Source of the DNA: an uncultured Psychroserpens sp.
Lineage (GTDB): Bacteria; Bacteroidota; Bacteroidia; Flavobacteriales; Flavobacteriaceae
NCBI GenBank assembly: GCA_905479815.1
Contig: CAJQOA010000098.1
Coordinates: forward strand, 1 to 43,007
Reading direction: 5' to 3'
DNA length: 43,007 nucleotides
Part shown: in pieces, positions 1 through 19,251 of the stretch
Position numbering within the stretch: the first letter of the stretch is position 1
How the letters are laid out: every line of letters starts with the position of its first letter
Notes under the pieces: model-generated
Told to the model about the DNA's origin: nothing
Database searches by the model: none
What the model saw: only the letters and a program-made list of their open reading frames with translations
Translations under genes and position numbers: made by a program

Positions 1-1179
1 TGGGAAGTATCCGGAACTCAGCCATTAGAACCAACTGCAGTAGATTGTTGGGATGATTATCAGTTTAATGATACAACATGTGCTTGGGAAAATCAAGGAA
101 CAGAACCAGTAGAGCCAACAACAGAATGTTGGGAAACGACATCGTTTAATACAGGAACGTGTTTATGGGAAGTATCTGGAACGCAACCATTAGAACCAAC
201 AGCAGTAGATTGTTGGGATGATTATCAATTTAATGATACAACATGTGCTTGGGAAAACCAAGGAACAGAACCAGTAGAACCAACAACAGAATGTTGGGAA
301 ACGACATCATTTAATACGGGAACGTGTTTATGGGAAGTATCCGGAACACAACCATTAGAGCCGACAGCAGTAAACTGTTGGGATAATTACCAGTTTAATG
401 ATACAACATGTGCATGGGAAAACCAAGGTACAGAGCCAGTTGAGCCAACAGGATTAGAATGTTGGGAAACGACATCATTTAATACAGGAACATGTTTATG
501 GGAAGTGTCTGGAACACAGCCATTAGAACCAACAGCGGTAGATTGTTGGGATGATTATCAATTTAATAATACAACGTGTGCTTGGGAAAACCAAGGAACA
601 GAACCAGTAGAACCCATAACAGAATGTTGGGAAACAACATCGTTTAATACAGGAACATGTTTATGGGAAGTATCAGGAACACAACCATTAGAACCAACAG
701 CAGTAGATTGTTGGGATGATTATCAATTTAATAATACAACATGTGCTTGGGAAAACCTAGGAACACAACCAGTAGAACCAACAGGATTAGAGTGTTGGGA
801 AACAACATCGTTTAATACTGGAACATGTTTGTGGGAAGTGTCTGGAACACAACCGTTAGAACCAACAGGTTTAGAATGTTGGGAAACGACATCATTTAAT
901 ACAGGAACGTGTTTATGGGAGGTATCTGGAACACAACCGTTAGAACCAACAGCAGTAGATTGTTGGGATGATTATCAATTTAATAATACAACGTGTACTT
1001 GGGAAAATCAAGGAACACAACCAGTAGAACCAACAGGATTAGAATGTTGGGAAACGACATCGTTTAATACAGGAACGTGTTTATGGGAAGTGTCTGGAAC
1101 ACAGCCATTAGAACCAACAGCGGTAGATTGTTGGGATGATTATCAATTTAATGATACAACATGTGCATGGGAGAATCAA
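1..1179 (+). repeat. Tandem in-frame 81/84-bp repeats encoding 27-28 aa modules [GTxPxEPTxx-C-W-x9-C-x-W-E-x-x], mostly alternating A/B types
   Basis: Direct reading: 7 A modules (GTQPLEPTAVDCWDDYQFNNTTCAWENQ) and 7 B modules (GTEPVEPTTECWETTSFNTGTCLWEVS, 27 or 28 aa); alternation broken once near 840-930 (B-B). Confidence 0.97.
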
Positions 1180-3477
1180 GGAACAGCTCCAATAGTACCA
1201 ACTAGTCTAAATGCAATATCTATATCAGATACTGCAGCAACAATTACTTGGAACGATTTAGCACCATTTGAATATGATTTAAGATATCGTGAAGTTGGAA
1301 GTCCAACTTGGATTGATATTCTAGATATTGCTGTAAATTCTCAGTCATTAACTGGTCTTACACCATTTACACAATATGAGGTTGAGGTTCGAAGTAAATG
1401 TTCAGCTACTGGAGTTTCAAGTTATTCAACAACTTTAACTTTTGTAACGATAGAAGCGAATAGTGATTATTGTAATTCTGCAAGTACTGATTCTTCTGAA
1501 GAATATATTAGTCGTGTTCAGTTAGCAGATATAGATAACACATCTGATTCTCAAAACTATTCTGATTTCACAGCTATTTCAACAGTATTGAGAAAAGGAA
1601 TAGCTCATACAATTACAATAACACCAACATGGACAGGTACTAATTATCCAGAAGCCTACTCTGTGTGGATTGATTATAATAAAGATGGAGATTTTGAAGA
1701 TGCCGATGAGCAAGTTGTTACTGTAGCTCCTAGTACTACTTCACCAGCAAGTGGTAGTTTTACTATACCAGCAAGTGCTTTAGATACAAAAACAAGAATG
1801 AGAGTATCTATGAAATGGAATGATATACCAGATCCATGTGAAACTTTTCAATATGGAGAGGTTGAAGATTATACGGTTATTATAGTGGGTTCTGGTGATT
1901 TAATCTATACGAGTAGTGCTTGGACTCCTTATGCACCATCACCTATAACAACTACAGATAATGCATTTGTTTTAGATGGAACGTATACTGTTACAGATGA
2001 TATTGAAATCAATAACATGAGTGTTTGTGTTGGAGCAGGAATCGTAGTTGAGAAAGCAAAAGCAATGAGGGTTAACGGAATTTTAAAGACAGCAGATAAT
2101 GTTGTATTGGAATCAGATTCTGATGAGTATTCAAGTCTGTTTGTTGAAAACTTTGTAGTAGGAACTGCTCAATATAAAAGACATGTCAATGCGGTAGCAA
2201 GTGTTGGAGGTAGTGATTTAATTGCACCACCAGTATATGGAGAATCGTTTATTGACTTTAGAGCAGCGAATCCAAATATTTTAAGTAACACAGCAAATAC
2301 ATTATTCCTGTTTGGACCATTTGATAAGGCAATAGATACTTATTTGTTATACACGAATACAGAGACTGCACCATTGCAAGCAGGTATAGGTTATAGAGCT
2401 GCATCTTCAGATGCAAGTACGTTTACCTTTACAGGTGATGTTAAAATAGGCGATATTAGTGTGGCAGTGGTTAATGATGGACCAACAAATCCAGAATGGA
2501 ACTTAGTTGGTAATCCTTATCCAGCATATCTTAGTTTGTCAGAATTCTTAGCAGCTAATAATCCTCAATTTGCGACGTTGACTTCTGGAATCTATGGTTA
2601 TGATGGTTTTGCCTCAGATGGATGGACGATTTGGAATCAAGCGTATTCAGATGCAAATCCTAATGCGTTAATTACACCAGGTCAAGGATTCTTAATAGCA
2701 TCAGCTACAAATAACGGTCAGGTTGAATTTACTGCGTCAATGAGACGTACAGGTAATGCTGATGATTTTATCGTAGGAAGGCAAGCTAGCCCAATCTCGC
2801 ATTTAAAATTAAAGTTAGATAATACATCAAATTCGTATCATACTGATTTCTATTTCACGGAAAATGCATCTCTAGGAGAAGATCCAAATTATGATTCTGG
2901 ATTGTTTGGTGATGCACCAACATTTGCCATGTACTCTCATTTAGTAGAAGAGAATGTTGGTACAAACTATGGTGTACAATCTATAGGTTCGACTAATTTA
3001 TCTGATGTGACGATACCTTTAGGTGTTAATATTTCCGAAGGACAACAAGCAACCATTAGTATTTCCGAAACGACACTTCCTGAAAATGTTGAGGTCTATT
3101 TAGAAGATAATTTAACTAATACATTTACGTTATTAAACACTTCAGATTATGTGTTTACAGCAAATACAGATCTTACAGGAACAGGACGTTTCTTTTTAAG
3201 TTTTGCTGAAGAAACGTTGAGTACAAGTTCAAGTAACTTAAATGATTTAAGTATATACACGACGACGCAGCCCGAAGCTTTATTTGTGAAAGGTCAACTA
3301 TTTGAAGATACGCAACTATCAATCTTTGATCTTCAAGGAAGATTAATTAAATCTATGGTTTTAAGTGCTAGTGAGACAAGTCATCGTATTGATGTGTCAT
3401 CATTTAATACAGGTGTTTATATGGTGTCTTTAAAAAATAGACTTCAAGAAAAAACTGAAAAAGTTGTAATTAAGTAA
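1..3477 (+). CDS. Partial CDS (5' end beyond window): secreted repeat adhesin-like protein; 14 complete Cys-Trp modules + FN3 + GEVED domain + T9SS type A sorting domain
   Basis: Frame 1 is open from base 1 (WEVSGTQPLEPTAVDCWDDYQFND...) to the TAA at 3475-3477. The listed GTG start at 505 lies inside a repeat. FN3-like segment PTSLNAISISDTAATITWN...YEVEVRSKC; GEVEDYTV motif; C-terminal IFDLQGRLIKS...GVYMVSLKN...KVVIK typical of Por secretion tails. Confidence 0.92.
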   Translation, partial: WEVSGTQPLEPTAVDCWDDYQFNDTTCAWENQGTEPVEPTTECWETTSFNTGTCLWEVSGTQPLEPTAVDCWDDYQFNDTTCAWENQGTEPVEPTTECWETTSFNTGTCLWEVSGTQPLEPTAVNCWDNYQFNDTTCAWENQGTEPVEPTGLECWETTSFNTGTCLWEVSGTQPLEPTAVDCWDDYQFNNTTCAWENQGTEPVEPITECWETTSFNTGTCLWEVSGTQPLEPTAVDCWDDYQFNNTTCAWENLGTQPVEPTGLECWETTSFNTGTCLWEVSGTQPLEPTGLECWETTSFNTGTCLWEVSGTQPLEPTAVDCWDDYQFNNTTCTWENQGTQPVEPTGLECWETTSFNTGTCLWEVSGTQPLEPTAVDCWDDYQFNDTTCAWENQGTAPIVPTSLNAISISDTAATITWNDLAPFEYDLRYREVGSPTWIDILDIAVNSQSLTGLTPFTQYEVEVRSKCSATGVSSYSTTLTFVTIEANSDYCNSASTDSSEEYISRVQLADIDNTSDSQNYSDFTAISTVLRKGIAHTITITPTWTGTNYPEAYSVWIDYNKDGDFEDADEQVVTVAPSTTSPASGSFTIPASALDTKTRMRVSMKWNDIPDPCETFQYGEVEDYTVIIVGSGDLIYTSSAWTPYAPSPITTTDNAFVLDGTYTVTDDIEINNMSVCVGAGIVVEKAKAMRVNGILKTADNVVLESDSDEYSSLFVENFVVGTAQYKRHVNAVASVGGSDLIAPPVYGESFIDFRAANPNILSNTANTLFLFGPFDKAIDTYLLYTNTETAPLQAGIGYRAASSDASTFTFTGDVKIGDISVAVVNDGPTNPEWNLVGNPYPAYLSLSEFLAANNPQFATLTSGIYGYDGFASDGWTIWNQAYSDANPNALITPGQGFLIASATNNGQVEFTASMRRTGNADDFIVGRQASPISHLKLKLDNTSNSYHTDFYFTENASLGEDPNYDSGLFGDAPTFAMYSHLVEENVGTNYGVQSIGSTNLSDVTIPLGVNISEGQQATISISETTLPENVEVYLEDNLTNTFTLLNTSDYVFTANTDLTGTGRFFLSFAEETLSTSSSNLNDLSIYTTTQPEALFVKGQLFEDTQLSIFDLQGRLIKSMVLSASETSHRIDVSSFNTGVYMVSLKNRLQEKTEKVVIK

Positions 3478-3725: not shown

Positions 3726-6700
3726 ATGAAACTAAATTATCTGTATTTAATTTTAGCAATGTTCTTTGCGAGTCAAATGAATGCTCAAACTCCAGGTGTT
3801 TCTATTTTCTATGAACAGTTCACAGGAGATACAAGAGAATATATCGAATACATTCCAGGGAATTTACCAATTATTATCTCAGCACCTCATGGAGGCGTGA
3901 AGCAATCTGGGAGTACTGTTGGTGGAACTTTCTATCCAGATAATGACAATACTTTGCCTGATAGAAATTGTGGTGGTACTAATGAACGAGATGATAATAC
4001 AGATATTTTAATTAGAGAAATTCAAGCAGAAATATTTGCACTTACAGGATGTTATGCACATGTTATTATAAATAATTTACACAGATCAAAATTAGATCCA
4101 AATCGAGAACAAACAGAAGCAACATGTGGAGATTCTGATGCCTTAGATCATTGGAATGGATGGCACAACTTTATTGATCAAGCAAGTACATCAGTAGAAA
4201 CAAATTGGGGAAAAGGGTTGTATATAGATTTACATGGCCAAAGTCATACGGTTCCAAGAATTGAGATAGGTTATAATATTACTGCAGGTGAATTAAATAC
4301 AGGAAATTTAAACAGTACAACTAATATTGATAGATCAACTATTAAAAATTTGGTTTCTAATAATTTGAATAGTCATACACATGAAGAGTTAATTAGAGGA
4401 GATAATAGTTTGGGTCAATTATTTCAAGAACAACCAGCTGTATTTTATAATGCCAATGTAAACCCACAATGTGGTGTTACTTCTGGTTATAGAGCTATTC
4501 CAAGTAATTCTAATTATGGTAGTAATACTTGTGATGATACTAGACCGTTTTCTAATGATTATTTCAACGGAGATTTTTATAACAACAGAAGACACGGTTC
4601 TGGAAATGGAAGTGGTACTGGTGCTGGTTCTAATGATGGAGGCGGAAACGTAGATGGCATCATGACTGAAGTCAATAGGCGTGTTCGAGATTTAGGAACA
4701 TATAATGGAAACGTCTATGATAGTAACCCTCAAACTTTAGTGCCTTTTGCTAAAGAGTATGCCGCAGTGGTTTTAGATTATATCGATATCCATTATAATG
4801 ATTTTGCAGCATTTACATATTCTTCAAATTCTTATGATGTTATTGATTCCGATCCATCACCTACAATTACAGGTCTCGCTGGAGGCACATTCTCAAGTAC
4901 AGCAGGTTTAGTCTTAAACGCTAGTACTGGCGTTATTGATTTATCAGCATCTTTACCTGGGAACTATGTTGTAACCTATACTGTTGGTTCTTGTGGCTAT
5001 TATAATGACACATTTAACATTTTAATTACAGGTCCTGATACAGTTGCCCCTTCAGCTCCAACTAATTTAGCAGCAAATAATATTGGATATACAACGGTCG
5101 ATTTAAGTTGGACAGCTTCAACAGATAATTTTGGAGTTACAGGTTATGATATATATCAAGATGGTGTTTTTTTAATAAATGTTGTTGGGACGTCACATCA
5201 AGTTACAGGCTTATCAGATTCTACTAATTATAGTTTTTACGTTATAGCTAGAGATGCTGCCAATAATAGTTCTGCGCAAAGCAATTCTGTTAGCATTACT
5301 ACATTAACTCCAGTACCATGTTCAGGAAGTTCTATAAGCACTTTTCCTTATTCCGAAAGTTTTGAAAACACTTTTGGTTTATGGACAAACGATACTGATG
5401 ATGACTTTGATTGGACTAATAAGCAAGAAGAAGGCGATGGGAATTCTACACCTTCTGGAAGTACTGGTCCATCATTAGCCTCAGATGGGAATTACTTTCT
5501 TTTTATTGAAGCATCTAATCCAAATTTCCCTAGTAAAGTAGCAAGACTAATTAGTCCATGTTTAGATTTTACAGGAAGAGAGAATGCAGTCTTAACATTT
5601 GATTATCATATGTTTGGTGGTTTTATTGGAGTATTAACTGTTGATGTTAGTATAGATAATGGTGCAACATATACAACTTTAACAGATTACACCTTAACAG
5701 GAGCTCAACAAACGGGTCATACAGATGCGTGGAAAACTCAAAATGTAGATTTATCCTTATATGATGGGCAATCCATAAAATTAAGATTTAGTGCAACAAC
5801 GAGTTCAGATGGAACAACAGGATGGCAAGGTGACATTTCATTAGATAATTTTGGAATAACATCAGATGCTGGAGGTTCAGCAGCTCCAGTTGCAGCATGT
5901 CAAAACATCAATGTACAACTAGATGCTTCAGGTAACGCAACCATAGTTGCTACAGATGTAGATGGTGGTTCAACAGATGATGTTGCCATTACTAACTACG
6001 CTATAGATATAGATACATTCAATTGTTCTAATATAGGAACACCTGTTGATGTGACATTAACGGTCACAGATGCAGACAGTCAAACAGATACTTGTGTTGC
6101 TACAATAACAGTTTTAGATCAAATTGATCCAGATTTTGTTAATGTGCCTACAAGTTTTACAGTGACCTGCGGAAACAATCAACCTACATGGACAGATCCT
6201 ACAGTTACAGATAATTGTGCAACGGGATTATCACCAACGAGAACAGATGGAACAAACCTCAATAGTGGTGATGTTTTTCCTATAGGGATGACAACCATTA
6301 GCTATTCTGTTAATGATGGAAATGGAAATACAACGACCACATCATTTATAATAGATGTAGTTCTTGATACAGAAAACCCAAACGCCATATGTCAAAATAT
6401 AGCTGTACAATTAGATGGTACTGGAAATGCGACGATTACTGCGTCTCAAATAAATAATGGATCCTCAGATAATTGTAGTGTAGCTTCTATAGTGGCATCT
6501 CAAACGACATTTACTTGTGCAAACGAAGGCGTTAATAATGTAACATTAACGGTTACAGATTCTAGCGGAAATGTTGATACGTGCACTGCAGTAGTAACTA
6601 TTACACTTCAGGATGTACCAGCTACGACAGAATGTTGGGAAACAGCTACATATAATAACACAACTTGTGTTTGGGAACTTAGTGGGACGCAACCTACAGA

Positions 6701-9257
6701 GCCAACTGCTACGAATTGTTGGGATGATTTCCAATTTAATGATACAACTTGTACATGGGAAAATCAAGGAACACAACCTGTTGAACCTACAGCAACGAAT
6801 TGTTGGGATGATTATCAGTTTGACAACGATGATATGTCGCCTACCTACTGTATATGGATAAATCAAGGGACACAACCAACTGAACCTACAGCAACGAATT
6901 GCTGGGATGACTTCCAATTTAATAATACAACATGTGCATGGGAAAACCAAGGTTCTGTGCCTATGGCTCCAACAGGATTGACTGCAGTTTCCATTACAAC
7001 AACAGGAGCTACTATAAATTGGGATGCGACACCTCCTTTAGATTATGATATAAGATACCGTCAACTTGGAAGTCCAGTTTGGATTGATATTCTTGACATA
7101 ACAAGTAATACACAAGCTTTAACAGGGTTGACAGGGTTGACACAATATGAAGTAGAGGTTAGAAGTAAATGTTCAGTTACAGCAACATCAAACTATTCTA
7201 CAGCTATTACGTTTACAACCTTAGACGACACTTCTAATTATTGTGATTCTGCTAGTACTGATGTAAGCGATGAATATATTAGTCGCGTAGAATTAAATAC
7301 AATTGATAATACTTCTACAGATCAATTTTATTCAGATTTCACAGGTATTTCAACGGTCCTTAGAAAAGGGACTCAATATACAATTTCTGTTACTCCAACT
7401 TGGACGGGTACGGTTTTCAACGAAGCCTATTCAGTATGGATTGATTATAATAATAATGGAGATTTTGAAGATGCAGGAGAGCAAGTCTTTATACAAGCAC
7501 CTACTCAAACGACACCAGTTAGTGGAAGTTTTACTATTCCTACTAATATTTCAGAAACAAAAACTAGAATGCGAGTCGCTATGAAATGGAATGATATACC
7601 AGATCCTTGTGAAACTTTTCAATATGGAGAGGTTGAAGATTACACTATAATTCTTGTAGGTTCTGGTGATTTGATTTATAGAAGTAGTGCTTGGACGCCT
7701 AATGCACCTTCTCCTACTACAAATACAGATAACGCCTTTGTTATAGATGGTACATATACTGTGACAGATGATATTCAAATAAATAACATGACCGTTTGTG
7801 ATGGAGCAGGTATCGTTATTGAAAAATCAAAATCATTAACAGTAAATGGAGAATTAAGAACCAGTGATAATGTTGTTTTAGAGTCAGATTCTAATGAATA
7901 TGCGAGTTTAATAGTTAATAATTTAATAGAAGGAATAGCGCAATATAAACGACATGTAAATAATACAGCAAGTGTAGGAGGTAATGATTTGATCGCACCA
8001 CCTGTTTATGGAGAATCATTCATGGATTTTAGAATGGGTAACCCTAATATTTTAAGCAATACCGCTAATACGTTATTCTTATTTGGACCTTTTGATAAAG
8101 CTACAGATACGTATTTGCTTTATACAGATACTGAAATCGCACCACTTAATTCTGGAGTAGGTTATAGAGCAGCGTCTACAGATGCAAGCACATTTACATT
8201 TACTGGTCGAGTGAAAATGGGAGAAATTAATACTCCTGTTGTTATTTCTGGGCCTACAAATGCCGAATGGAATTTAATAGGAAATCCGTATCCTTCGTAT
8301 ATTAAACTGTCAGACTTTTTAAGCGCAAACAACTCCAAGTTTGATAGCGAACGTTCTGGAATTTATGGTTATGATGGTAATACAGCAAATGGTTGGATGA
8401 TTTTGAATCAAGCGTATTCACTTGCAAATCCTAATGCTAAAATAACACCAGGTCAAGGCTTTTTAATTGCTTCAGGAGCTAGTCAAACACAGATTGATTT
8501 TACACCAGCAATGCGATCTATAGGTAATGATGATGATTTTATCGTCGGAAGACAATCGAATGATGTCCAAATTTCGCATTTAAAACTAAAGTTAGATAAC
8601 GCATCAAATTTTTATCATACCGATTTCTATTTTACAGAAAATGCGTCGTTAGGTTTAGATCCTAATTATGATTCTGGATTATTTGGAACAGCTCCTTCTC
8701 TTGCGATATATTCACATTTAGTTGAAGAGAATCAAGGCAGAAATTATGGTGTGCAATCTATAGGGTCTACCAATTTATCTGATGTGACGATACCTTTGGG
8801 TATTCACCTTTCCGAAGGACAACAAGCTACTATCAGTATTTTAGAAACAACACTTCCTGAAAATGTTGAGGTCTATTTAGAAGATAATTTAACCAATACA
8901 TTTACATTATTAAACACATCAGATTATGTCTTTACTGCCAACACAGATCTTATAGGAACAGGGCGTTTCTTTTTAAGTTTTGCAGAAAGTGCGTTGAGTA
9001 CAAATGTTAATGAATCTAATAGTATTGAGATTTTTACGACTACACAACCCAAAGCAATTTATGTAAAAGGGCAACTCTTTGAAGACACAGCATTGACTAT
9101 GTATGACATTCAAGGACGATTGGTAAAAACAGTAATTTTAGATGATTCTCAAACTGTAAATATAATAGATGTAGCGTCAATCTCAAGTGGTGTGTACATT
9201 GTAACTGTTAAAAATAATAATCAAGAAAAAACTCAAAAAGTTATCATAGGAGACTAA
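3726..9257 (+). CDS. Giant secreted protein: N-formylglutamate-amidohydrolase-like domain, FN3, MAM-like domain, HYR-like domains, 4 Cys-Trp modules, FN3, GEVED, T9SS type A sorting domain
   Basis: Signal peptide MKLNYLYLILAMFFASQMNAQ; ISAPHGG, NNLHRSKLDPNRE, YIDLHGQSH motifs; FN3 PSAPTNLAANNIGYTTVDLSWTAS; SFENTFGLWTND... MAM-like; GEVEDYTI; C-terminal MYDIQGRLVKT...GVYIVTVKN tail. Confidence 0.85.
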   Translation: MKLNYLYLILAMFFASQMNAQTPGVSIFYEQFTGDTREYIEYIPGNLPIIISAPHGGVKQSGSTVGGTFYPDNDNTLPDRNCGGTNERDDNTDILIREIQAEIFALTGCYAHVIINNLHRSKLDPNREQTEATCGDSDALDHWNGWHNFIDQASTSVETNWGKGLYIDLHGQSHTVPRIEIGYNITAGELNTGNLNSTTNIDRSTIKNLVSNNLNSHTHEELIRGDNSLGQLFQEQPAVFYNANVNPQCGVTSGYRAIPSNSNYGSNTCDDTRPFSNDYFNGDFYNNRRHGSGNGSGTGAGSNDGGGNVDGIMTEVNRRVRDLGTYNGNVYDSNPQTLVPFAKEYAAVVLDYIDIHYNDFAAFTYSSNSYDVIDSDPSPTITGLAGGTFSSTAGLVLNASTGVIDLSASLPGNYVVTYTVGSCGYYNDTFNILITGPDTVAPSAPTNLAANNIGYTTVDLSWTASTDNFGVTGYDIYQDGVFLINVVGTSHQVTGLSDSTNYSFYVIARDAANNSSAQSNSVSITTLTPVPCSGSSISTFPYSESFENTFGLWTNDTDDDFDWTNKQEEGDGNSTPSGSTGPSLASDGNYFLFIEASNPNFPSKVARLISPCLDFTGRENAVLTFDYHMFGGFIGVLTVDVSIDNGATYTTLTDYTLTGAQQTGHTDAWKTQNVDLSLYDGQSIKLRFSATTSSDGTTGWQGDISLDNFGITSDAGGSAAPVAACQNINVQLDASGNATIVATDVDGGSTDDVAITNYAIDIDTFNCSNIGTPVDVTLTVTDADSQTDTCVATITVLDQIDPDFVNVPTSFTVTCGNNQPTWTDPTVTDNCATGLSPTRTDGTNLNSGDVFPIGMTTISYSVNDGNGNTTTTSFIIDVVLDTENPNAICQNIAVQLDGTGNATITASQINNGSSDNCSVASIVASQTTFTCANEGVNNVTLTVTDSSGNVDTCTAVVTITLQDVPATTECWETATYNNTTCVWELSGTQPTEPTATNCWDDFQFNDTTCTWENQGTQPVEPTATNCWDDYQFDNDDMSPTYCIWINQGTQPTEPTATNCWDDFQFNNTTCAWENQGSVPMAPTGLTAVSITTTGATINWDATPPLDYDIRYRQLGSPVWIDILDITSNTQALTGLTGLTQYEVEVRSKCSVTATSNYSTAITFTTLDDTSNYCDSASTDVSDEYISRVELNTIDNTSTDQFYSDFTGISTVLRKGTQYTISVTPTWTGTVFNEAYSVWIDYNNNGDFEDAGEQVFIQAPTQTTPVSGSFTIPTNISETKTRMRVAMKWNDIPDPCETFQYGEVEDYTIILVGSGDLIYRSSAWTPNAPSPTTNTDNAFVIDGTYTVTDDIQINNMTVCDGAGIVIEKSKSLTVNGELRTSDNVVLESDSNEYASLIVNNLIEGIAQYKRHVNNTASVGGNDLIAPPVYGESFMDFRMGNPNILSNTANTLFLFGPFDKATDTYLLYTDTEIAPLNSGVGYRAASTDASTFTFTGRVKMGEINTPVVISGPTNAEWNLIGNPYPSYIKLSDFLSANNSKFDSERSGIYGYDGNTANGWMILNQAYSLANPNAKITPGQGFLIASGASQTQIDFTPAMRSIGNDDDFIVGRQSNDVQISHLKLKLDNASNFYHTDFYFTENASLGLDPNYDSGLFGTAPSLAIYSHLVEENQGRNYGVQSIGSTNLSDVTIPLGIHLSEGQQATISILETTLPENVEVYLEDNLTNTFTLLNTSDYVFTANTDLIGTGRFFLSFAESALSTNVNESNSIEIFTTTQPKAIYVKGQLFEDTALTMYDIQGRLVKTVILDDSQTVNIIDVASISSGVYIVTVKNNNQEKTQKVIIGD
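6616..6960 (+). repeat. Second, shorter array (4 modules) of the Cys-Trp repeat
   Basis: ECWETATYNNTTCVWELSGTQPTEPTATNCWDDFQFNDTTCTWENQGTQPVEPTATNCWDDYQFDNDDMSPTYCIWINQGTQPTEPTATNCWDDFQFNNTTCAWENQG. Confidence 0.93.
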
Positions 9258-12400: not shown

Positions 12401-14522
12401 AGGAGATACGGTTTATAGTTTTAAAGTTATAGCTAAAGACACAGCAGGTAATGAATCTGAAGATAGTAATGAAGTCGCAATTTTAACACTACCTAATGAT
12501 TTAACGTATTGCATTTCAGAAAGTACAAACACAAACGATGAGTATATTAGTAGAGTGCAGTTAAATACAATTGATAATGTAACTGGACCAACATTTTATT
12601 CGGATTTTACAGGTTTGTCTACCACTTTAAGAAAAGGAACACAATATACAGTTTCTATAACACCAACATGGACAGGAACACTTTACAATGAAGGATATGG
12701 TGTTTGGATTGACTATAATAATGATGGTGATTTTGTAGATGCTGGAGAAGAGGTATTTACTGCAGCTCCTAGTCAAAATACTCCAGTGAGTGGTAGTTTT
12801 ATAATTCCTCAAAGTGCATCAGAAACTGATATGAGAATGCGAGTTACATTAAGATATAACCAAACACCTGGTCCTTGTGATGCATTTCAATATGGTGAAG
12901 TAGAAGATTATACAGTTAAAATCATAGGATCTGGAGATTTAATTTACAGCAATAATACTTGGACACCTTATGCGCCATCGCCAACTACAGGAACAGACAA
13001 TGCACTAGTTTTAGATGGAACATATAGCCTTACAGGAGATGTTCAACTTAATAATATAAGCGTAAATACAGGTGCTAATATGATTATTGAGAAAGCACAA
13101 TCACTTACACTAAATGGAAATTTAATAAGTAAGGATAATGTAGTTTTGGAGTCCGATTCTAACGAATATGCAAGTTTGATTGTCACTAATTTTGTCATCG
13201 GAAATGTGCAGTACAAAAGATATGTCAATACAACGGCAAGCTCTGGAGGTAACGATTTAATTGCACCTCCAGTTTTTGGAGAGCCATTTGTTGATTTTAG
13301 AACTAATAACCCCAATATTATAAGTAATACAAGCAACACCTTATTCTTATTTGGGCCGTTTGATAAAGTCACAGATACATATCTATTGTATTCAGATGTA
13401 GAAACAGCGCCAATGTTTGCTGGAACAGGATATCGATCAGCTTCAACAGATGCTAGTACGTTTACATTTACTGGATTAGTAAATACAAGAAGCGTGAGTG
13501 TTCCAATAGTTAACGATGGACCAAATAACCCAGAATGGAACTTGGTAGGGAATCCTTACCCATCTTACATAAAGCTATCAGATTTCTTAGCTGCTAATAA
13601 TGCGCAGTTTGATTTGCAAAGTGGTGGAATCTATGGTTATAATGGTAACAGTTGGACCATCTGGAATCAAGCCTATTTATTGTCCAATCCTAATACTATT
13701 ATTACACCAGGACAAGGGTTTTTGGTAGCCTCAGCAACCAATAACGGACAAATTACTTTCACGCCAACTATGCGAATTGCAGGTAGTGATGATGATTTTA
13801 TTGAAGGAAGACAAGGAACAAATTCTAACATAGAACATTTGCAATTAGAACTTAGTAATGCTATGGAAGGTAATTATAAAACAGATTTCTATTTTACAGA
13901 TAATGCAACTAATGGATTAGATTTTAATTACGATGCAAGTGTTTTTGGAAATCAAGCACCATCTAGTTTTGCATTATATTCTCATTTATTAGAAGAAAAT
14001 ATAGATGTTGATATGGCAATCCAGTCACTAGGTTTTGATGCGCTTACAAACGCAGTAATTCCTTTAGGTGTTCATGTAGAACAAGGGCAGCAAGTAACTA
14101 TTAGTATTACAGAAACAACCTTACCTTCTAATATTGAAGTGTATTTAGAAGACACGCAAAATAACACGTTTACACTATTAAATAACAGTGATTATACAAT
14201 CACACCAGCACAAGATTTGAACACGATTGGTCGCTTCTTCTTACGTTTTAATGAAGAGACGTTGAGTACAAATTTAAATGAAGAAAATGATTTAGAAATC
14301 TATACTACCTCGCAACCTAAAGTGATTTTTGTAAAAGGACAATTATTAGAAGATACAGCATTAACTATGTATGACATTCAAGGACGCGTAGTTAAAACGA
14401 TGACTTTAGATAGTTCACAAATTTTAAATAGAGTAGATGTCTCTTCTGTTTCAAAAGGCGTTTATATTGTGAGTTTGAAGAATGGATTACAAGAGAAAAC
14501 TGTAAAGGTTATTGTTAAGTAA
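9420..14522 (+). CDS. Giant secreted protein: sortilin/VPS10-like BNR propeller, two FN3 domains, GEVED domain, T9SS type A sorting domain
   Basis: ORF 9375..14522; internal ATG at 9420 (MIKKLVLPVIVLIIITSLLF) gives a better signal/TM start. Asp-box-like TTDGGTTWN, SIDGGSNWN; FN3 APTAPTNLVASNITGNSIDLNWDA; GEVEDYTVKI; tail MYDIQGRVVKTM...GVYIVSLKN. Confidence 0.87.
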   Translation: MIKKLVLPVIVLIIITSLLFIINNSNDELTVDQLTIDQQRQQHKNYLENSPFTETLTWNKKKRKLNGLPPNRYFEQMWELSINPATGKLDDGELTILREQIIQQRAGSRNPGGVNNAWVERGPNNIGGRTRVIMFDPNDASNNTVYAGGVSGGLWINTNITSAASTWVRVENVPGNLSVTSITVDPRNSNIWYVGTGEQYTAGDVVGNGVYVTTDGGTTWNAINIPPADNGDINFSATNLFLSGLYYVNDVLAWDNGVSTELYVAVGANVYGDSSSPTNWLGLQSSGIYRSIDGGSNWNRIQSANMQHIFSGETYYYIPNDFEVGADNRIWVGTIGSALGEGGGRVFSSTNGSTWTEAAASPLTDSDRVELETSATNANKIYALTEGLTSPVHIYETTNAFASISSLSLPNDADTDITANDFCRGQAFYDLVIEADPVNDDIFYVGGIDLFKTTNGGASYTQLSHWYGGFGFQPVHADQHSIAFGNNSSSAMLYGNDGGVYYSNNAGGNINVRNNGYNVTQFVKAGIGPDGNGDTNGIFSAGAQDNGTQAFRDGNTSPGVNSSEELSDGDGFYTFVDKDGDYMIATYVFNVIYRFDLPWDGVSRINGGATSLANSQTTGDFVNQMSYDDDANRLLANNSAGGSFSVRSINVNNASSGTLSNGALTSKPTAFRASPFTTNTWYLGTADGSLLRLTNVTNSSATWTAITTPFVGSVSSVRFGETANDIIVTMHNYGVTSVWYSSNAGVNWVSKEGNLPNIPVRDFLLNPLLPNEAIIATQLGVWQTIDFNTTSPSWSQAYNGMSDVSVTSLDYWDVSGDDINNQVIASTYGRGVFTGSFSASVPDSEAPTAPTNLVASNITGNSIDLNWDAAIDNIGVTEYDIYQDTNLIATAPSTSLQVTGLNPLTSYDFYVIAKDAAGNSSPQSNTVTATTIAADTEDPTTPLNLLATNVTASSVDLTWEASSDNYGSVSYDIYQNNVFVINVSTITFQIIGLLGDTVYSFKVIAKDTAGNESEDSNEVAILTLPNDLTYCISESTNTNDEYISRVQLNTIDNVTGPTFYSDFTGLSTTLRKGTQYTVSITPTWTGTLYNEGYGVWIDYNNDGDFVDAGEEVFTAAPSQNTPVSGSFIIPQSASETDMRMRVTLRYNQTPGPCDAFQYGEVEDYTVKIIGSGDLIYSNNTWTPYAPSPTTGTDNALVLDGTYSLTGDVQLNNISVNTGANMIIEKAQSLTLNGNLISKDNVVLESDSNEYASLIVTNFVIGNVQYKRYVNTTASSGGNDLIAPPVFGEPFVDFRTNNPNIISNTSNTLFLFGPFDKVTDTYLLYSDVETAPMFAGTGYRSASTDASTFTFTGLVNTRSVSVPIVNDGPNNPEWNLVGNPYPSYIKLSDFLAANNAQFDLQSGGIYGYNGNSWTIWNQAYLLSNPNTIITPGQGFLVASATNNGQITFTPTMRIAGSDDDFIEGRQGTNSNIEHLQLELSNAMEGNYKTDFYFTDNATNGLDFNYDASVFGNQAPSSFALYSHLLEENIDVDMAIQSLGFDALTNAVIPLGVHVEQGQQVTISITETTLPSNIEVYLEDTQNNTFTLLNNSDYTITPAQDLNTIGRFFLRFNEETLSTNLNEENDLEIYTTSQPKVIFVKGQLLEDTALTMYDIQGRVVKTMTLDSSQILNRVDVSSVSKGVYIVSLKNGLQEKTVKVIVK

Positions 14523-18618: not shown

Positions 18619-19251
18619 TTAATTACGTTTTGTATTGCGTTTAGCACGTTCCAAATCGCGTTGAGCGCGTTCCAAATCTCTTTGAGCACGTTCTAAATCA
18701 CGTTGAGCATGTTCGGTTTTTTTTGCATCTTCTTTTTTACGATCTGTACCAGATATGTAATACTTTAAATCATTTCCTAATTCTTGGATTTTATTTAAAA
18801 ACCCTTTTGAGGCGACATCAGTATCTAAATGCATGCGTAAATGACCTTTAGTGAGCTTACACTCAAAAACTTCATCTCCACTTTTACTATCAGACCATAG
18901 ATAGGTGTTACCGTTAATTTTTAAATTAGTTTTCCCTAAGGTCTTTAAGAGCATCGTTTTTACGCCAGCGTTTTTTGATTTATGAAAACTAGATCTAAAC
19001 TTGTAAGTATCATCAGAAATAGAAATTGATACTGAGCTGTTTGAGGTTTCATCATCATCATTATCTATTGAAATAGAATACGATGTCCCATTTGTTGTTG
19101 TCGTTTTTGGAGGTGTTGGAGGCTCTGGAGCCGATTGCGCATTTAATCCATACACTGAAAGAAAAGCAAATACAATTGCTAAGCTTAGTCCTTTTTTCAC
19201 ATCAATAATCTTGATGCTGTCTTGTCTGTTTTTTGATTTTGAAAAATTCAT
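18619..19251 (-). CDS. Secreted/periplasmic hypothetical protein with C-terminal AQRDLER heptad repeats
   Basis: Signal-like segment KGLSLAIVFAFLSVYGLNAQS; C-terminal EHAQRDLERAQRDLERAQRDLERAKRNTKRN; preceded by a TAnnTTTG-type box. Confidence 0.8.
   Translation of the reverse strand: MNFSKSKNRQDSIKIIDVKKGLSLAIVFAFLSVYGLNAQSAPEPPTPPKTTTTNGTSYSISIDNDDDETSNSSVSISISDDTYKFRSSFHKSKNAGVKTMLLKTLGKTNLKINGNTYLWSDSKSGDEVFECKLTKGHLRMHLDTDVASKGFLNKIQELGNDLKYYISGTDRKKEDAKKTEHAQRDLERAQRDLERAQRDLERAKRNTKRN
18644..18706 (-). repeat. Three 21-bp in-frame tandem repeats encoding heptad AQRDLER, plus partial fourth
   Basis: + strand gcacgttccaaatcgcgttga / gcgcgttccaaatctctttga / gcacgttctaaatcacgttga / gcatgttcgg. 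Confidence 0.93.

Follow-up and report, generated by a model that had tools for sequence, protein, structure and literature searches.

The window analyzed here, a stretch of 43,007 nucleotides from a marine flavobacterium that represents a whole contig or its left part (G000:C98:1-43007, window base 1 being contig base 1), begins inside an array of two-cysteine/tryptophan modules belonging to a protein with a T9SS sorting domain. On balance, we lean toward reading this array as a stalk that belongs to a surface protein exported through T9SS, is made of stapled hairpins, bears an M14 peptidase head, and changes in length by recombination. Each module would fold as a small beta-hairpin with F7 facing W14, and the cysteine at the turn (C12) would be disulfide-bonded to the first cysteine (C1) of the following module, stapling the hairpins into a stiff, hard-to-stretch rod. 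The base of the protein would consist of the fn3, GEVED, and sorting domains, and the stalk would keep an M14 zinc carboxypeptidase head off the outer membrane, so that export via T9SS would display the peptidase on a stalk. Unequal recombination between modules would alter stalk length over evolutionary time, and purifying selection would preserve the module sequence. If the staple is right, tension would be borne by disulfides, and the stalk would withstand stretching and proteolysis. The proposal starts from direct observations, namely, the sequence, the order of domains, the conservation of the modules, the differences in copy number between species, and the bias toward synonymous changes.

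The array occupies positions 1 to 1209 of the forward strand, within an open reading frame of 1158 aa (P0001; positions 1 to 3477, forward strand) that lacks its 5' end at the contig edge and encodes the array, fn3, GEVED, a tail of the flavobacterial surface-protein type, and a T9SS type A sorting domain. A half module (WEVSGTQPLEP, positions 1 to 33) precedes 14 complete C-W-x9-C-x-W modules of 27 or 28 aa. The first Cys codon lies at position 46, where the first complete module starts, and the others start at positions 127, 211, 292, 376, 460, 544, 625, 709, 793, 877, 961, 1045, and 1129. Seven modules are of type A (CWDDYQFNDTTCAWENQGTEPVEP) and seven of type B (CWETTSFNTGTCLWEVSGTQPLEP), in the order ABABABABABBABA. 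Thus, the alternating array reported in the sequence-only reading was found again, with alternation holding overall except for one BB pair at 793/877; the span given there (1 to 1179) was right at its start, whereas the last module ends at about position 1209. The A copies share 90% DNA identity, and the B copies share 92% DNA and 100% protein identity. Tandem Repeats Finder recovered the same array independently at positions 1 to 1185, with periods of 84, 165, and 333. A degenerate module pattern gave 25 matches in the genome of the window, all of them in array genes, against 0 for the reversed control, which excludes a chance origin of the array. The half module and the coincidence of the window start with that of the contig agree with the earlier claim that the array runs beyond the left edge. 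Since the array is severed by the assembly end, 14 modules is a minimum.

Downstream of the array, and adjoining it, lies a fibronectin type III domain (fn3; positions 1198 to 1440, forward strand; aa 400 to 480), followed by a GEVED domain above the curated cut-off (positions 1657 to 1878, forward strand; aa 553 to 626) and the T9SS type A C-terminal sorting domain (Por_Secre_tail; positions 3304 to 3471, forward strand; aa 1102 to 1157). The latter scored 40.4 bits with PF18962 (cut-off, 27) and 35.3 bits with TIGR04183 (cut-off, 23), and a Por secretion tail over its curated cut-off is one mark of T9SS type A cargo. Together with the GEVED domain, and with the 67 type A tails present in the same genome, this bore out the initial view of P0001 as a secreted T9SS protein. 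P0001 belongs among the Bacteroidota T9SS surface proteins, which combine fn3, GEVED, HYR, or SprB repeats with a Por or CHU_C tail, since both GEVED and TIGR04183 exceeded their cut-offs; neither Pfam nor NCBIfam has a model dedicated to its C-W-x9-C-x-W module. Folded proteins are transported by T9SS (PMC9251779).

The next gene, P0002 (positions 3726 to 9257, forward strand; 1843 aa), encodes a signal peptide, fn3, MAM-like, and HYR domains, four modules (positions 6633 to 6983, forward strand), fn3, GEVED, and a T9SS tail. Its modules, one of which is longer by 5 residues at the hairpin turn, occupy the same position as the P0001 array, and the protein also gave a weak N-formylglutamate amidohydrolase-like match below the cut-off. 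A third gene, P0003, encodes GEVED and a T9SS tail without modules. A long C-terminal region is common to these three successive T9SS genes (window positions 1180 to 3477, 6900 to 9257, and 12500 to 14522). P0001 and P0002 share 75.7% DNA identity overall, with patches of 92 to 93% that suggest gene conversion.

The M14 domain is absent from the P0001 frame as sequenced, which starts at the contig edge, and the proposal of a peptidase head comes from orthology and gene order in another species. In L083, from another uncultured Psychroserpens species, the ortholog is a protein of 2802 aa with M14, fn3, MAM-like, and HYR domains, 23 modules, fn3, GEVED, and a tail. Its Peptidase_M14 domain (PF00246; E, 3.8e-41) lies N-terminal of the array, and its N terminus is signal peptide-like (MKKITYLVLLFMIVIQNSFA followed by Q), that of P0001 being beyond the contig edge. 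The L083 ortholog stands directly before the P0002 ortholog, as P0001 does before P0002 in the window. The lost N-terminal part of P0001 is thus most likely an M14 zinc carboxypeptidase.

A search of the same assembly for M14 found no domain other than that of contig C121. The M14-type gene there has 5 modules, and C121 is the only match in this genome to the N-terminal region of the L083 ortholog. The assignment of C121 and the window to a single gene was rejected: C121 has an array, fn3, and GEVED belonging to itself, and along the 809 bp that the two have in common its DNA is 87.9% identical, a difference of 12%. By this comparison, C121 represents a different gene copy or allele from P0001. 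Another contig of this genome, C110, carries an array of 8 modules in a different protein.

Regarding the fold, AlphaFold2 models were obtained for five modules plus fn3 (10 sequences; mean pLDDT, 91.8) and for six modules (66 sequences; mean pLDDT, 95.6). AlphaFold2 confidence may be inflated for repeats. Both models, built from different alignments, predicted one beta-hairpin per module, with strands at residues 4 to 8 and 13 to 17 in type B and at residues 5 to 8 and 13 to 16 in type A. In a B module such as CWETTSFNTGTCLWEVSGTQPLEPTAVD (positions 127 to 210, forward strand), the predicted turn spans residues 9 to 12, with C1 before strand 1 and C12 at the turn; CWDDYQFNDTTCAWENQGTEPVEPTTE (positions 211 to 291, forward strand) exemplifies type A. 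The pTM values of the models were only 0.56 to 0.61, so that the arrangement of the hairpins, the rod shape, and its stiffness are not established by them. The natural 5-residue insertion of the P0002 module falls exactly in the predicted turn. Over 1324 modules, W/Y2, F7, W14, G18, P21, and P24 are nearly invariant, and C1 and C12 were both retained in 1322, a count biased by a profile built from two-Cys modules. From the models, we infer a small beta-hairpin for the module, with the aromatics F7 and W14 paired across the strands.

The closure of each module by its own disulfide, as originally claimed, did not hold up in this hairpin. In a geometry test in which the hairpin was rebuilt from the secondary-structure string of the model, not from its atom coordinates, C1-C12 closure within one module was never obtained in 12 runs of 200,000 conformers each. 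Between modules, from C12 to the C1 of the next one, 54 to 161 clash-free closures were found per model among 400,000. Counts of cysteines flanking the arrays pointed the same way, on the premise that an exported protein with self-closed modules should have an even number of cysteines outside them. Among 71 proteins counted after the last module, 57 had an odd number, and among 77 counted before the first module, 58 did, which fits a pairing of the last C12 with a downstream cysteine and of the first C1 with an upstream one. When proteins were grouped into homology clusters by strict coverage clustering, the modal count was odd in 11 of 14 clusters downstream (p = 0.06) and in 16 of 24 upstream (p = 0.15), values that are suggestive only. 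In P0001, the downstream count is even (4) owing to one extra cysteine at aa 676, and its fn3 domain contains a single cysteine (aa 467) with which the C12 of the last module may pair. Taking parity and geometry together, the probable partner of C12 in one module is C1 in the following one, which would staple neighbors.

The same data bear on an alternative in which the modules are beads on a string, each with its own C1-C12 loop, the array being a flexible spacer. The presence of two cysteines per module would suit this explanation, as would L132, whose two-module groups stand between nearly Cys-free domains, so that same-module pairing fits at least as well there, and the module of L151, which stands alone. 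However, the modelled hairpin geometry forbids C1-C12, the cysteine counts outside the arrays are odd, and the exact conservation of the modules exceeds the needs of a passive spacer; moreover, near the single module of L151 there is an additional upstream cysteine, which is usable for between-module pairing. We therefore regard the beads as unlikely. Of the bead-like stalk proposed earlier, the stalk stands as the most likely role of the array, inferred here as well, but the module-wise closed loops do not.

The module family appears to be undescribed, as far as these searches reach. No family matched the module consistently in Pfam, NCBIfam, or PHROGs, none of the P0001 modules exceeded a Pfam cut-off, and a PDB sequence search with two module profiles returned nothing at E values up to 10. 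PSA_CBD (PF18341) scored 17.8 bits on the window array (cut-off, 27), with no single stretch passing, and the Pfam matches in other array members were inconsistent, being scattered over 110 different families. GcvP2_C, PSA_CBD, ArgoMid, and others were rejected as identities of the module, their recurring weak matches looking like chance scores added up over repeats. Literature searches on C-W-x9-C-x-W repeats, by topic and by peptide words, turned up no paper describing them among those covered. The sequence-only reading, which named no characterized function for such repeats and would have been contradicted by a well characterized domain family matching the module, is in concordance with the absence of a relative in Pfam, NCBIfam, and PDB.

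These searches also weigh on the possibility that the modules are multivalent ligand binders, recognizing glycan or chitin through exposed aromatics, with copy number setting avidity. Three conserved aromatics per module and a protein sequence that stays constant despite synonymous drift would be in agreement with such a role. Nevertheless, F7 and W14 face each other in the predicted hairpin and resemble a core pair, no carbohydrate-binding family scored above its cut-off, PSA_CBD included, and in many unrelated proteins the arrays occupy the middle of the chain, with the head on one side and the sorting domain on the other. Ligand binding seems less plausible than the beads, and the stalk remains our preferred reading.

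Comparison of the copies within the array showed that its protein sequence is not free to drift. The P0001 B modules are protein-identical over 24 residues, and all 15 changes between them are synonymous (0 nonsynonymous, against an expected nonsynonymous share of 0.76; p = 5.7e-10), and the A modules differ by 12 synonymous and 8 nonsynonymous changes (p = 6.6e-5). A synonymous bias was likewise present in nearly all other arrays. This excess among copies indicates that the protein sequence of the modules is held by selection. It also argues against a neutral expansion of slippage- or recombination-prone sequence, tolerated in large T9SS proteins. Such an origin would account for copy numbers from 3 to >100 and for assemblies that break inside arrays, but not for the synonymous excess in almost every array or for the nearly constant retention of both cysteines, and we consider it highly improbable.

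Protein identity among the B modules was 1.00 within the window versus 0.77 to those of L083, a pattern of concerted evolution. For the A modules, the respective values were 0.89 and 0.90, with no concerted signal. In the L083 array, a 7-module block occurs twice as a 588-bp duplication, the copies being 99.8% identical over 400 bp and including an exact repeat of 374 bp; in the window array, exact repeats reach 75 bp at most. Thus, the active unequal recombination put forward earlier is supported in part, by the copy-number differences and by the L083 duplication, but the window copies are not fresh, given the 15:0 ratio of their B modules. The arrays thus recombine, and that of the window is under selection and not freshly expanded.

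Of 25 examined genomes from the genus (that of the window counted), 23 had the module; it was also present in 32 of the 301 family-set genomes (~11%) and in 4 of the 396 phylum-set genomes. A scan of named genomes yielded 276 matching stretches, the best 80 of which were all in Bacteroidota, mostly in Flavobacteriaceae (Psychroserpens, Winogradskyella, Lacinutrix, Bizionia, Olleya, and Flavobacterium) but also in Saprospiraceae and others. The analysis thus names a widespread, undescribed Bacteroidota surface module. Array length ranged from 2 to 3 modules up to 121 in one ORF (L140) that runs off its contig. In the M14-type genes of the genus, 5, 6, 9, 13+, 14+, 23, and 57+ modules were counted, a variation between species, with one genome per species. 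Many contigs terminate within arrays, and the arrays account for assemblies breaking in these genes.

Several arrays showed further features. The Saprospiraceae arrays of L140 and L157 (121 and 85 modules) are broken by spacers of 74 to 75 residues. In L178 (G174:C1:270000-286000, from a single-contig genome), >90 modules with 99% DNA identity are split by frame changes into several ORFs; these changes may be sequencing error or real decay. Close to the end of its contig, L160 contains an array of >70 modules that occupies several reading frames and shows frameshifts. A second downstream context was found in L104, L110, L113, L114, and L176, where a DTDNDGYG-type putative metal-binding motif ends the array before the sorting domain; a MopE-like match in L141 relates to this motif.

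Among known systems, the array resembles the Periscope Proteins SasG, Rib, and Sgo_0707, whose domains fold individually and whose defining screen used repeats of >50 aa (PMC8201768, PMC9704523). As in those proteins, near-identical tandem repeats separate a putative functional domain at the N terminus from a surface/sorting domain at the C terminus, DNA repeats recombine with one another, and copy number varies, the variation here being between species. The window array consists of highly identical tandem repeats, a Periscope trait. Unlike Periscope repeats, its modules of 27 to 28 aa are below the >50-residue rule, which only an A+B pair (55 to 56 aa) passes, would be disulfide cross-linked if the pairing holds, and belong to a T9SS-exported protein of Bacteroidota. 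By analogy, the array may work like a Periscope stalk, and it is not classed as a Periscope Protein because of the repeat-length rule and because its copy-number variation was seen between species, with one genome each.

The best Foldseek PDB matches of the six-module model, five entries in all, belong to the heavy chain of the Entamoeba Gal/GalNAc lectin, at a level that is not significant (E, 6.7e-3; TM, 0.22). In the arm of the Entamoeba histolytica lectin, inter-domain disulfides rigidify a row of beta pseudo-domains of 20 to 35 residues (PMC12948311; PDB 9gjb and 9gjc). Both arm and array would be rows of small beta units with disulfide-joined neighbors, the joining being probable in the window modules. 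The pseudo-domain, which is eukaryotic, has three strands and four cysteines, with an extra intra-domain bond besides the inter-domain ones, whereas the window module has two strands and two cysteines and falls outside that definition. The lectin arm is therefore best viewed as a structural analogue of the array, not as a relative.

A broader proposal, which we advance tentatively and hold somewhat short of an even chance, is that these arrays amount to a new kind of bacterial stalk: two-cysteine beta-hairpins, each disulfide-linked to its neighbors instead of being closed on itself, would give a covalently continuous rod of 3 to >100 modules, adjusted by recombination, convergent with the amoebal adhesin arm, and spread across Bacteroidota and a protein of three viral contigs. 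A stapled rod, if true, would keep very long repeat proteins stiff outside the cell, with their surface reach tuned by recombination.

The viral contigs (L163 to L165, fragments classed as viral in IMG/VR) encode a 1334-aa protein with three modules (L163:2596-6597, also in L164 and L165), close to a gene matching a tail-fibre PHROG. In the third module of the L163 protein, the first cysteine is replaced by serine. No Terminase_6N was found in the three contigs, a negative that carries little information for fragments, tblastn of the phage-borne modules against a phage collection gave zero matches, and the viral fold library returned nothing beyond unspecific tail-fibre-like matches. The protein is an apparent case of a host surface module captured by a phage protein. 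Within the window, a separate short tandem repeat of a 21-bp unit (3.7 copies) is present at positions 18637 to 18714, inside a minus-strand ORF (18619 to 19251).
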